Part shown: one piece after another, positions 11,086 to 20,237 of the stretch
How the letters are laid out: every line of letters starts with the position of its first letter
Numbering within the stretch: the stretch's first letter is position 1
Assembly: GCF_021372645.1 (NCBI RefSeq)
Contig: NZ_JAJFUC010000100.1
Span: forward strand, 1 to 41,250
Source of the DNA: Clostridium sp.
Lineage (GTDB): Bacteria > Bacillota > Clostridia > Clostridiales > Clostridiaceae
Direction of reading: 5' to 3'
DNA: 41,250 nucleotides
Notes under the pieces: model-generated
What the model saw: the letters and a program-made list of their open reading frames with translations, nothing else
The model's database searches: none
What the model was told of the DNA's origin: nothing
Program-made: the position numbers and the translations under genes

Positions 11086-11484
11086 GTGTTTATAAGAATA
11101 AAGAAGTCTAAAAATTTAAATATTAACATGCTTTTTGTTATGGTAAATTTGAAAGTTTCAGATAGATAAAAACAGATTTGTACTCAATAGAATTACATAG
11201 AAAAGAATATGTAAAAATTACTAGTAAACTGTAAAATTATTTGATATAATTTACATGTTAAGTTAAATGCATGTATATTAATATATTACAACTAGTATTG
11301 GAAACAATTATGAATTTCTTTTATTTGGGCACTTAGGAAATTTGGAGTTTGTAGTGCAACCGGCCAATATAAGAATAAAACTTTTAAAAGGGATTATTCT
11401 TATATTGGCTCTTTTAATGTCATAAAGATAATTGAATTTACTAGAAAAGAAATCTTAAATATTATAAGAATGTGGGGGTACAAT
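11086..11484. other. Spacer splB / chemoreceptor
   Basis: No gene is seen. A possible -10 box TATAAT occurs near 11245 without a good -35. The only strong structure is the long hairpin at 11363-11409. Confidence 0.4.
11363..11413 (+). terminator. Long hairpin upstream of second chemoreceptor
   Basis: GCCAATATAAGAATAA (11363-11378) and TTATTCTTATATTGGC (11394-11409) are a perfect 16-bp inverted repeat with a 15-base loop, followed by TCTTTT. It can serve as the splB terminator although it is 280 bases away; it lies only 75 bases before the next gene, so an effect on that gene is also possible. Confidence 0.55.
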
Positions 11485-13176
11485 ATGAGTAAAATAGGAA
11501 TAAAAATTTTAAAAATGATTGGAATAATTTCACTTATTTCAATGATATTGCTACTATTACTTAATGTAATAGTGTTTAAAATGTTATTTAAAAGTCTGCA
11601 AACTGATGCAAAAAATATTGCAATAGAAGCTGTAAATGTTATTGATGGTGATAAGCTAGAGAGGGTTATACAAAATAAATCAATGGATAGTGATGAATAT
11701 AAAGAAATTGAACAATCAATGATGAGCTTTAAGAGTGACAATAATATAAGATATTTTTATACATTAGCTCAAAATCAGGGGAATAGTGCATATATCCTTG
11801 TGGATGCAGCGTTAACTAATAAATCTGAACTTGGAGAAGAGTATGGGTTAGAAGAGGAAATGAAAAAAGCGTTTGAGGGAACACCGTCATTTAATGAAGA
11901 ACCTACCAAAGATGAATATGGTACATTTATATCTGGCTATGCACCTATCAAAAACTCTAGTGGTAAGGTCATTGCAATTGTAGGGGTTGATAAGGATGTT
12001 GCAAATTTTATATATATAAGAACTAGGATTATTAGTGATAGTATAATAGCTTCAATAGTTATTTTGATATTATCTGTATTATCATCTATTATATTCTCAA
12101 AAAAAATAACTTTTAATGTTAATCAAATAAAAGATGCATTAAATGCTATGAAGCAAGGAGATTTAACTGTTTCTATAAATGTTTTAAGTAAAGATGAGTT
12201 ACAAGATATAGCTGAAGAAATAAATAATTTCAGAGAAGAGACAGCAGAAACATTAAGATTGGCAAAAGGTGTTTCTGGTGATGTAAGGCAACAAAGTGAG
12301 ACTCTATCAGTAGTATTCCAAGAATTGGCTGCATCATCACAGGTTATTACTAATTCAGTTGAAGAAGTATCTAAGGGATCAAGTGACCAAGCTGGAGAGT
12401 TAATGAATATAAGCAATACTATTAGTAACTTTGGTTTGAAAATTGATCAATCGGTGATGGATATTGAAAAAATAAATAGTAAAATGACATTAGTAGACTT
12501 AAAGGCAATAGATAGTAGTAAAGACCTAAAGGTTTTGGAAGATTCAATAAAAGATACTAATTTATCATTTGCTGATGTAAGAGAAAAAATACAAGGGTTA
12601 GGTATAGAGTTATCTAAAATCAGTGAAATAACTAATGTAATTAAATCTATTTCTGATCAAACTAACCTTCTTGCTCTAAATGCAGCAATTGAATCAGCAA
12701 GAGCAGGTGAATCAGGTAGAGGATTTTCAGTAGTAGCAGAAGAAATAAGGAAATTAGCCGAGCAGTCTAAGATATCTTCTTTAAGTATTAGTGATTTAAT
12801 TTCAAACATTTCAAATGATAGCAACATTGTAGTAAAGACATCAGAAGAAATGAACAATAAACTTAATAGTCAGATGCAGGTGATTGATAAATCTATGAGC
12901 TCATTTAAAGATATAATAGAAAATATAGAAGAAATAATGCCACAAATAACAGCTGTAAATAGCAGTATAGCTATTATTAATAGTGATAAAGAAAGTATTA
13001 TTAAAAGTGTTGAAGTAGCAGCATCTCTAGCAGAAGAAGTTTTAGCATCAACTGAAGAAATAACCGCATCATCACAAGACTTTAATGCATCATCACAAGA
13101 AGTAGCCGCATCATCAATAGAGTTAAGTGGCAAGGCACAATCTATGATTGGAGCAATAAATAAGTTTAAAATATAA
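11485..13176 (+). CDS. Methyl-accepting chemotaxis protein, short sensor type
   Basis: Chemoreceptor of 563 residues. First membrane helix about 9-30; extracellular Cache-like sensor about 35-175 with [31 protein letters not shown] and [10 protein letters not shown]; second helix about 184-205; then HAMP and the signalling domain with tip [20 protein letters not shown] (about 391-410). The C-terminal end has repeated AS.Q/ASTEE units and finishes in KFKI like the first receptor in this window. The start is set to the ATG at 11485, since GGGGGT (11473-11478) precedes it; the ATG at 11470 would overlap that site. No che genes are adjacent. Confidence 0.92.
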
Positions 13177-18188: not shown

Positions 18189-18272
18189 AGCCTTTGGCTT
18201 AAATAAGAATTAAAAAACAAAATGACTATAAATTACATATACTACTTTAGATTAATAAGTAGGAAGTTAAAT

Positions 18273-18767
18273 ATGAAATTTTTAGCTAGAATTTTTAAAA
18301 GCAAAGAAAACAATAGGAAAAATACAAGAGCAGATAGTTTTAAGGATAATACTAATGCTACAAATTATGTGAATTCAAATAATTTTTCAAGTGTAACTAA
18401 TTATTTCATTTGGGTAAATCTTAAAGAATTTAAAGTAAATATCTTTGAAGGAAGTACAAATAAATGGGTGTTAGTCCATAGTTATTTATGTACCATAGGA
18501 AAGAAATCTACTCCAACACCAAAGGGAACTTATACAATTGGAATAAAGGGTCTTTATTTTGGAGTAAATAAAGGATATAAATGCTGGTATTATACTCAAT
18601 TTAAAGGAAATTATTTATTTCATTCAATAATATATAATTTAGATGGCTCTATTAGGGATGGAAGACTTGGGATGGCATTATCTGATGGTTGCATAAGACT
18701 AACTAAAGTAAATGCGAAATGGATTTATGATAACATTCCTAGAGGAACTAAAGTAGTTATCAGTTAA
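18273..18767 (+). CDS. L,D-transpeptidase, YkuD domain
   Basis: Enzyme family that makes 3-3 cross-links or anchors groups in peptidoglycan. The catalytic domain (about 45-164) has TPTPKGTYTIG, His117 in FHSII and Cys140 in SDGCIRLTKVNAKWIYD, which fit HxnSxGCIRL of YkuD enzymes. I choose the ATG at 18273 because AGGAAG (18261-18266) precedes it; an in-frame ATG at 18222 has no ribosome site. In this form the protein has 164 residues and a basic, polar N-terminus without a clear signal peptide, so export would have to be non-classical or the protein may act from the cytoplasm of the mother cell after lysis. A role in spore cortex or coat is possible only by analogy. Confidence 0.85.
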   Translation: MKFLARIFKSKENNRKNTRADSFKDNTNATNYVNSNNFSSVTNYFIWVNLKEFKVNIFEGSTNKWVLVHSYLCTIGKKSTPTPKGTYTIGIKGLYFGVNKGYKCWYYTQFKGNYLFHSIIYNLDGSIRDGRLGMALSDGCIRLTKVNAKWIYDNIPRGTKVVIS

Positions 18768-18864
18768 AAACACCAAACTATTATATATTTGAGATGGAAT
18801 ATCTATTAAAAGAACAGCCTAATCTGAGGCAAATAAAATTAATCAGAAAATTCAAAAAAATATA

Positions 18865-18893
18865 TTGCAATAAGTTGCACAATGAGATATAAT
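18865..18893 (+). promoter_or_regulatory. Vegetative promoter of the putative RNA gene
   Basis: TTGCAA (18865-18870), an exact 17-base spacer and TATAAT (18888-18893). Transcription would begin about 18899-18902, just before the structured repeat region and not before any believable coding frame. Confidence 0.75.
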
Positions 18894-18899
18894 TTAAAT

Positions 18900-19097
18900 A
18901 AGATAAAGATTAAAATTTATCTTAGTGGACTGACACTTCAATCCGGCAGAAGCGTATATCTTCAGTGATATACAGTTGGTGACGGGCAACGTAAAAAACC
19001 CGGAAGCAATGTACGACATATGGGCGTATCCAGTTGGCGGACAACGTAAAAATCAGTTACTAAGAAGAGCAAGTGTATTTAATGCACTTGCTTTTTT
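18900..19097 (+). ncRNA. Candidate structured RNA with tandem repeat
   Basis: About 198 nt between a consensus promoter and an intrinsic terminator, richer in G and C than its surroundings. A long closing stem pairs 18921-18933 with 19053-19064 (12 pairs, one bulged G). It encloses two imperfect repeats of about 55 nt (from 18943 and from 19000), each with the order CCGG, a hairpin, AGTTGG, CAACGTAAAAA. Hairpins are 18954-18960/18967-18973 (7 bp) in repeat 1 and 19011-19015/19025-19029 (5 bp) in repeat 2; each repeat also has GTTG/CAAC. The terminator stem starts one base after the closing stem. I do not recognise a family. It could be a stand-alone small RNA or a two-domain riboswitch for the radical SAM gene 270 bases downstream. 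Confidence 0.6.
19065..19097 (+). terminator. Terminator of the putative RNA gene
   Basis: AAGAGCAAGTG (19065-19075) pairs with CACTTGCTTTT (19085-19095), eleven pairs with one G-U, and the T run reaches 19097. Confidence 0.88.
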
Positions 19098-19367: not shown

Positions 19368-20237
19368 ATGAAGAAATTTAAAAAAGTTTATATAGAAATA
19401 ACAAATGTATGTAATTTAAGTTGTAATTTTTGTCCTAAAACATCTAGAAAACTAAAATTTATGGATAAAAACTCCTTCGAACATATTGCTAAAAGTATAA
19501 AACCCTATACAGATCATGTTTATTTTCATTTAATGGGAGAGCCATTTTTAAATAAAGAACTTGAAAATTTCTTGGAGATAAGCAAAGAAAATCAATTGAA
19601 AGTTAATATAACTACTAATGGAACTTTAATAAGTGATGTTAAAGATACATTGCTTAATGCATCTGCTTTAAGACAAGTAAATATTTCACTACATAGTTTT
19701 GAAGCTAATGAAGAAAATATTGATTTTAATGAATACATAAATAATATAATCAATTTTGTTAAAGAATCAACGGAAAGGACTAATATAATTTGTTCTTTGA
19801 GATTGTGGAACTTAGATACAAAATATAGTGCTAGTAATAATATGAATATTGATATATTTAAATTACTTGAACAAGAATTTCAAACAAACTGTGATTTAAA
19901 GGAATGTTTAAAAGAGAAAAATAGTTTTAAATTAAAAAATAATGTGTATATTAGTATGGGCGAAAAATTTAAATGGCCATCTCTAAAAGTTGAAGAATTA
20001 GGGGAAAGGGCTTTTTGCTATGGACTTAGAGATCAAATAGGTATATTAGTTGATGGAACAGTGGTGCCATGTTGTTTAGATAGTGAAGGCAGTATCTCTC
20101 TTGGTAATGTTTTTGAAAGCACTTTAGATGAAATCTTAAACTGTAAAAGAGCTAAGGATATATATGATGGATTTTCTGGAAGAAAAGCAGTAGAAGAATT
20201 ATGTAAAAGATGTGGATTTATAAATAGAGTAAGATAG
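19368..20237 (+). CDS. Radical SAM / SPASM-like protein
   Basis: Protein of 289 residues that would reductively cleave S-adenosylmethionine. The 4Fe-4S motif is Cys15-x3-Cys19-x2-Cys22 (CNLSCNFC), followed by FHLMGEPFLN (the GGE-like SAM-binding strand) and NITTNGTLI. The C-terminus has a SPASM-like cysteine set: AFCYG, VDGTVVPCCLDSEG, SLGNVFE, then CKRAKD and LCKRCGF, so auxiliary Fe-S clusters are likely. Such proteins modify peptides, enzymes or small metabolites; the substrate here is unknown. GGAG lies 11 bases before the ATG. A decayed copy of the terminator of the next gene follows its stop. Confidence 0.87.
   Translation: MKKFKKVYIEITNVCNLSCNFCPKTSRKLKFMDKNSFEHIAKSIKPYTDHVYFHLMGEPFLNKELENFLEISKENQLKVNITTNGTLISDVKDTLLNASALRQVNISLHSFEANEENIDFNEYINNIINFVKESTERTNIICSLRLWNLDTKYSASNNMNIDIFKLLEQEFQTNCDLKECLKEKNSFKLKNNVYISMGEKFKWPSLKVEELGERAFCYGLRDQIGILVDGTVVPCCLDSEGSISLGNVFESTLDEILNCKRAKDIYDGFSGRKAVEELCKRCGFINRVR

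Follow-up and report, generated by a model that had tools for sequence, protein, structure and literature searches.

The window analysed here (the whole stretch of Clostridium DNA, 41,250 nucleotides in length) carries an RNA of about 165 nt whose family is linked to PBECR4 genes and also includes conserved copies without a toxin gene. The comparisons described below make it probable that the window copy is a stand-alone RNA of a new antitoxin family with PBECR4 proteins as partners, and that this orphan would bind and neutralise PBECR4 RNases in trans. Because its relatives often directly precede PBECR4 genes, we read the window RNA as the antidote half of a pair whose toxin has been lost. 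Of the three options raised in the original prediction, a repeat-type RNA antitoxin without its toxin is backed by the PBECR4 genes found downstream of relatives, and a stand-alone small RNA is compatible with the window copy; the third, a tandem riboswitch for the neighbouring radical SAM gene, fails on evidence given below with the orphan copies.

The RNA locus in the window

Promoter, RNA and terminator all lie within 18865-19097; these and the other elements of the locus described below are on the forward strand. Direct reading confirmed three parts of the original prediction: the promoter TTGCAA-17-TATAAT at 18865-18893 (-35 box 18865-18870, -10 box 18888-18893), two repeats sharing the order CCGG, hairpin, GTTG and CAACGTAAAAA, and, after the fold, an intrinsic terminator hairpin ending in a T run (19065-19097), for which folding and close copies also speak. 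Missing from the predicted elements was a 5' hairpin, AAGATAA/TTATCTT, at 18900-18923, the likely transcript start, which emerged from folding and from an alignment of window-type copies (A5, described below). Upstream of the promoter lies a conserved element, ATTAATCAGAAAATT (18838-18852), which we take to resemble a CodY box or UP element. The RNA is flanked by a YkuD gene (18222-18767) and a radical SAM/SPASM gene (19368-20237), both on the forward strand.

The window RNA folds better than chance (z = -5.12; none of 200 shuffles equalled it), and its conservation across genomes is far above chance, bearing out the prediction of a structured RNA. In Rfam, no family matched over the window RNA at gathering score, a lenient search gave no convincing match there, and no match (drum, the abiF motif and riboswitches included) covered the RNA of the window or of 11 relatives, in line with the original prediction, which saw no known riboswitch signature in it. 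Elsewhere in the window, a cyclic di-GMP-II riboswitch (11291-11374, forward strand, 76.7 bits) precedes a gene (11470-13176) whose product resembles a methyl-accepting chemotaxis protein.

A proposed fold of three pseudoknots

We propose a fold with one H-type pseudoknot, at hairpin H1, and two reciprocal long-range ones that tie hairpin H0 to hairpin H2. A linker, rich in A in the case of H1 and H2, would connect each of the three hairpins to a short segment X on its 3' side. The H1 loop would pair with the segment immediately 3' of H1, and the other two loops would exchange partners, H0 pairing with the segment that follows H2 and H2 with the one that follows H0, so that the RNA would be closed on itself. 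In the window, H0 (18925-18936) has the stem GTG/CAC and a loop containing Y0 = ACTGA (18929-18933), predicted to pair with X3 = TCAGT (19053-19057); H0 is supported by covariation and by its invariance among orphans. X1 = TCCG (18942-18945) has as its putative partner Y2 = CGGA (19038-19041), within H2 (19033-19045, GTTG-G-CGGA-CAAC). In unit 1, hairpin P2a (18954-18973, GTATATC/GATATAC), which in the orphan group lacks the loop motif of the family, is followed by H1 (18975-18990), composed of GTTG (18975-18978), Y1 = CGGG (18983-18986) and CAAC (18987-18990). Y1 would pair with X2 = CCCG (18999-19002) across the A-rich linker 18991-18998, forming the H-type pseudoknot. In unit 2, hairpin P2b (19011-19029) retains the family loop motif GAC..ATGGGC, as judged from the orphan rows of the alignment used for covariation.

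That alignment (A3) holds 72 two-unit RNAs and 31 counted pairs. It was built from 80 unique cores, with six outside the length limits and L091, L131 and L057 left out and the window added; its 12 window-group rows are slightly misaligned in unit 1. Paired cells made up 96.9%, compared with 83.6% in shuffles, which leave the effect of relatedness in place, and 24-47% in slid controls. The covariation score was 0.395 against 0.138 in shuffles, with none of 500 shuffles as high, and both-side changes occurred in 18 pairs against 13.2 in shuffles. The number of further pair types was reached by 36 of 500 shuffles and the other four measures by none. The variable pair of X1:Y2 was CG in 60 and UA in 12 of the 72 RNAs, with no exceptions, and all four pairs of Y1:X2 showed double changes, with seven unpaired cells in total.

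Since the search pattern fixes GTTGGCRGACAAC and AAATCAGT, helix S1b and most of Y2 and X3 are invariable in A3. The pattern-fixed helices were therefore checked independently, by hand reading of loci obtained by protein search or with R2, a covariance model broader than our first one (R1). The H2 stem reads GTCG/CGAC in L241 and L242 and GCTG/CAGC in L243, all found without the pattern; the H1 stem GTTG/CAAC changes likewise to GTCG/CGAC (L103) and GCTG/CAGC (L088, L153). Locus L246, with a PBECR4 frame of intact length, has H0 as ACAG/CTGT and Y0:X3 as TACGA/TCGTA when read by hand; its X1 and X2 are both CCCA and stand opposite Y loops that are both TGGG, so this locus is uninformative on the choice of X/Y partner. 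The RNA of Erysipelothrix phage phi1605, also read by hand, has H0 as ACGAG/CTCGT, Y0:X3 as CTTGA/TCAAG, X1:Y2 as CTTG/CAAG, the first stem as GTCT/AGAC and Y1:X2 as TTGG/CCAA. Y0 and X3 are thus changed yet still paired in both. Besides two-unit RNAs we found one-unit forms (L123, L129, L158) and one three-unit form (L152). Using a lenient, crude test that has no chance control, we saw a 5' hairpin near the position of 18900-18923 in 34 of 37 toxin-linked rows.

Covariation, including that of distant members found without the pattern, shows the predicted RNA structure to be conserved, and supports pseudoknots of the antitoxin type at Y1:X2 (with GTTG/CAAC) and at Y2:X1. Relatives with compensatory changes, whose absence would have counted against the original prediction, therefore exist. 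Its 12-pair closing stem survived in part: the inner ACTGA/TCAGT is kept family-wide, whereas the outer CTTAGT/ACTAAG is imperfect in some close copies, absent from the distant copies inspected, and in competition with the better supported hairpin GTG-NACTGA-CAC. We accordingly rejected the full stem and retained the inner part alone. RNAalifold replaced the GTTG/CAAC hairpins by a longer Y:X duplex, an alternative that we also rejected because GTTG/CAAC covaries.

Relatives of the RNA often precede PBECR4 genes

We scanned a genome collection with a pattern derived from the last hairpin, using RNA letters only. The scan returned at least 118 stretches, and 80 loci among the matches listed were read and classified with a profile of trimmed toxin proteins (alignment A4). 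Among these listed matches, 45 of the 80 loci had PBECR4 coding sequence immediately after the RNA in the same orientation, as a frame of intact length in 33 and as part of one in 12; no toxin was detected in 12 window-group loci and 15 others, and three were left unassigned. Five of the 80 listed loci had no recognised H0 hairpin: L086, L097 and L132, which we judged to be chance pattern matches, and L113 and L148, which are truncated RNAs, the latter with a PBECR4 frame. L105 and L125 (in genome G079) gave no match to the trimmed profile, although the DNA downstream in L125 is still remnant-like by eye. The hosts of the listed loci were mostly Lachnospiraceae, Oscillospiraceae/Ruminococcaceae and Clostridium.

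The covariance models led to the same neighbour. Among the distant members found with R1, four have a PBECR4 gene next to the RNA (L058, L059, L066, L067; the frame in L058 is short, 93 aa) and three have remnants (L060, L061, L068); the PBECR4 start lies 54 to 71 nt past the RNA core in the five distant R1 members measured. R2 matched in 18 of 391 genomes of the class, and six of its 12 loci outside the genus have a PBECR4 frame of intact length and one a 39-residue piece. PBECR4 itself is rare, occurring in 13 of 206 genomes of the family and, at a strict cut-off, in 3 of 398 genomes of a phylum sample, so that its position next to the RNA cannot be accidental. The association is partial when one starts from the toxin: 5 of the family's 13 PBECR4 genes have the RNA upstream, and R2 gave no match near the other eight or near the three from the phylum sample. 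In toxin-linked loci the terminator sits between RNA and gene; a crude terminator scan found a hairpin of at least 11 pairs with a T-rich stretch in 17 of 32 such loci and weaker signals elsewhere. Locus L149 (3551-4478) has two tandem RNA copies, and about 0.8 kb separates the second from a ToxN-type (PF13958) gene downstream.

The partner protein

All 20 aligned toxin proteins of A4 match the Pfam family PF18813 (PBECR4), with a best E of 8.8e-48 and no other family at E 0.01; one member scored 120.9 bits against a cut-off of 27. Invariant residues of the alignment include Y20, H54, K94 and G128. PBECR was originally described as a domain of phages and mobile elements with predicted metal-independent RNase activity (PMC5512222). 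An AlphaFold2 model of the toxin (mean pLDDT 92.7) had no significant match in the PDB, by sequence or by fold. The putative RNase activity of the toxin thus rests on its Pfam family, since no solved relative is significant. The weak PDB fold rows (E 0.3-1.3) included a pneumococcal toxin-antitoxin module and a CDI toxin, and two viral proteins share a similar fold with the model. One toxin had no match in PADLOC; for another, a weak match to CARF-PDDEXK (E 1.2e-4) was regarded as chance. The NCBIfam search of the toxin proteins returned none, and in PHROGs one unnamed family matched 4 of the 20.

Orphan copies in Clostridium

By blastn, the window RNA was found at E < 1e-20 in 10 of 59 genomes, its own included. 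R1 extended this to 26 of 68 Clostridium genomes (own included) and 29 of 225 genomes of the order. Four of the 26 have all or part of a PBECR4 gene after the RNA: G003, G011 and G032 by Pfam, with stops inside the frame in G011 and G032, and G079 by eye. Orphans number 28 copies, the window's included, in 22 Clostridium genomes, three of which (G009, G027, G029) hold three copies each. No PBECR4 gene or remnant was found within 1.5 kb downstream of orphans in the 22 genomes (best E 0.15, and 0.65 with the trimmed-protein profile), except that G031, where the contig ends 90 nt past the RNA, cannot be judged. Five orphan genomes have PBECR4 elsewhere (G009, G027, G031, G068, G085), and the window's genome gave no PBECR4 match. 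Sequence identity to the window RNA ranges from 84 to 95% among the orphan copies, with 76% in G009, and the flanks outside promoter and terminator are much less similar than the RNA.

The genes around the orphans bear on the idea that the RNA acts in cis, as a riboswitch or attenuator in which a ligand or protein alters RNA and terminator and thereby controls the radical SAM or the PBECR4 gene. Sixteen of the 22 orphan genomes, that of the window among them, have the radical SAM gene of the ruvAB neighbourhood downstream; the terminator comes immediately after the fold and, in toxin-linked loci, precedes the gene. Yet the distance between RNA and radical SAM gene varies from about 0.2 to 5 kb, and the gene is missing in others: in the remaining six, the YkuD side alone is kept in two, the ruvAB side alone in one and neither in three. 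RNA copies also occur in tandem, three in G009 and two each in G027 and G029, and no Rfam riboswitch matches over the RNA. Because the neighbours vary, we reject the riboswitch reading and consider cis control very improbable as an account of the RNA, although attenuation of the toxin gene may accompany antitoxin action.

We next consider the structure of the orphans themselves, using 24 window-type copies from 20 genomes (A5). H0, Y0:X3, X1:Y2 and H2 are invariant in all 24. Paired cells reached 99.4% as against 98.2% in shuffles, a high background that reflects the little variation present. Four pairs were changed on both sides, a number reached by 26 of 500 shuffles, and two of the five covariation measures were reached by 26 and 32 of 500 shuffles. 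The predicted structure of the orphan group is therefore supported mainly by invariance. The unit 2 loop motif keeps A in 12 and C in 11 of the 12 orphan rows of A3. In unit 1 of these rows the motif A is kept in none of the 12, and the first loop has 3 to 4 nt compared with mostly one; with the loop motif gone and the first loop longer, unit 1 may have changed its function. Because the H2 unit is unchanged in 24 copies from 20 genomes, the orphan most likely still binds PBECR4 RNases.

The control region of the orphans also has features of its own. In crude scans, 27 of the 28 copies have promoter-like hexamers, and the element TC[AT]GAAAATT precedes the promoter in 23 of the 28, at a spacing of 10-12 nt to the -35 box wherever one scored. 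It can be argued from this element, from the constant chromosomal position ahead of the radical SAM gene in 16 of 22 orphan genomes, from the altered unit 1 and from the lack of a PBECR4 match in 17 of the 22 that the family consists of antitoxins and the Clostridium orphans have been repurposed, for instance as a regulatory RNA for another protein or an mRNA, under their own regulated promoter. We regard repurposing as a serious but rather unlikely alternative. H2 and the long-range pairs of the orphans have the toxin-linked form, and copies with no detected toxin are also found outside this group and on viral contigs, for which a decoy role is the simpler account. Nor is the upstream element clean evidence, as the best matches to the CodY consensus have 1-5 mismatches in orphans against 3-7 in toxin-linked rows. 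As to origin, the ruvAB neighbourhood of G119, from another genus, contains the RNA together with an intact PBECR4 frame, which suggests that the orphans arose from such a layout through loss of the toxin.

Copies on phages and viral contigs

The same pattern matched eight contigs in IMG/VR. All or part of a PBECR4 frame lies downstream on four of them and was not detected on the other four, two of which are identical over the 5566 nt compared; this leaves three distinct copies with no detected toxin: L262 (1117-1254; R2 score 122.1 bits), L261 (3192-3363; 74.7 bits) and L266 (4374-4515; 65.7 bits), with downstream DNA read to the end of the fetched locus (1.1 kb in L262). Their contigs measure 137 and 93 kb, with phage-type genes, and 42.5 kb, with holin and endolysin genes. 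A role of these copies in phage counter-defence is possible. The phi1605 locus (L269, 1612-2235), found via the protein, matches R2 at 83.9 bits; there, the RNA and a PBECR4-like frame adjoin a type III restriction gene and recombinases. A stop precedes the end of the match, so the PBECR4-like gene may be truncated. Searches with blastn found no match of the window RNA in plasmid and phage records, and none of two other family RNAs in phage records.

Drum and other RNAs before PBECR4 genes

Two loci reached via the protein have a PBECR4-type gene immediately preceded by the Rfam drum RNA (RF02958), with scores above gathering (L070, 94.5 bits; L251, 52.3 bits). A search for drum itself gave hits in 7 of 218 genomes, four of them above the cut-off. 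Of these four, L254, which is the L070 locus, is directly followed by PBECR4; L255 and L256 are not, and in L257 the contig ends 386 nt on. The three hits below the cut-off comprise L258, again with PBECR4 downstream, and two apparent chance matches situated within a gene, L259 and L260. Drum may thus be an RNA antitoxin too; in the open-access literature we found no paper giving its function. At eight further loci (L073, L074, L076, L077, L078, L252, L253, L270), a different promoter, RNA-like stretch and terminator precede PBECR4, as judged by eye. In L255, drum is directly followed by a second RNA-like stretch similar to that before the PBECR4 gene of L074. Folding upstream of four divergent PBECR4 genes gave z-scores of -2.40 (the drum of L070), -0.61, -0.06 and 0.33, and simple folds of the RNA-like stretches in L073 and L077 were no better than shuffles. 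We therefore limit the claim of a structured RNA to the drum cases.

Proposed mechanism and implications

In type III systems, the terminator sets the ratio of RNA to toxin. We envisage that in the full system studied here one promoter would give rise to the RNA, the terminator would stop most transcripts upstream of the toxin gene, and read-through would supply a small amount of toxin mRNA. The folded RNA would then bind and block the PBECR4 RNase in a type III-like manner. The window copy would neutralise PBECR4 RNases that arrive on mobile elements or are encoded elsewhere in the genome. We infer toxicity, direct binding, neutralisation and action in trans from these comparisons taken together.

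The RNA could instead be a substrate, guide or activator of PBECR4. Inhibition and activation would look alike in the present data, and AbiF, which has an ncRNA partner, is structurally linked to ancestral Cas13 (PMC12373285). However, toxin-less RNA copies are common, as antidotes should be, and the same paper describes the AbiF RNA itself as an antitoxin (PMC12373285). We hold such a role to be improbable.

More broadly, and with somewhat less than even confidence, we suggest that solitary antitoxins on chromosomes and phages form a layer of immunity and counter-immunity, and that PBECR4 is a large toxin class with several unrelated RNA antitoxins, drum among them. Toxin-less copies in Clostridium would disarm PBECR4 RNases from phages and mobile elements, and toxin-less copies on phages would disarm the PBECR4 systems of their hosts. 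If the antitoxin reading is true, the RNA-based toxin-antitoxin systems, which have hitherto comprised few protein families, would gain a new toxin class and a new RNA fold, and an undescribed RNA found across Clostridia, and possibly drum as well, would acquire a testable function. A conserved toxin-less RNA antitoxin, both chromosomal and viral, would make the idea of RNA-mediated anti-toxin immunity directly testable in laboratory strains.

Comparison with known systems

We found no paper in the open-access literature that recognisably describes this RNA family or the pairing of an RNA with PBECR4. Drum resembles it in lying directly upstream of PBECR4-type genes; it has a separate Rfam model, however, to which the window RNA has no match. 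AbiF/RCd22 (RF03085) shares with it a structured two-motif ncRNA directly before the gene of a toxic protein. That ncRNA has its own promoter and terminator, lies upstream of the toxic gene, and neutralises in cis and in trans (PMC12373285). In contrast to PBECR4, the AbiF protein belongs to the Abi_2 family, and its RNA motif differs from ours, over which no Rfam family matches in the window or in the relatives scanned.

The closest parallels are with CptIN and ToxIN. In type III systems, RNA pseudoknots block the RNase (PMC5086642, PMC4627078); in CptI the first loop is a single base and the second is A-rich (PMC4627078, PMC5086642). In our family, too, the gene of a predicted RNase is preceded by a terminator and tandem RNA repeats with putative H-type pseudoknots, and a CptI-like single-base first loop occurs in 53 of 60 first units outside the orphan group. 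This type III layout of terminator and RNA repeats before a toxin gene is found in the family and not at the toxin-less window locus. The toxin falls outside the ToxN/CptN/TenpN superfamily, and for this reason we do not claim membership in the ToxN-based families. The new family thus differs from CptIN and ToxIN in its toxin, which is PBECR4 (20 of 20 proteins) rather than ToxN, in RNA repeats with an extra hairpin, reciprocal long-range pairs and a cap hairpin, H0, and in its many toxin-less copies.
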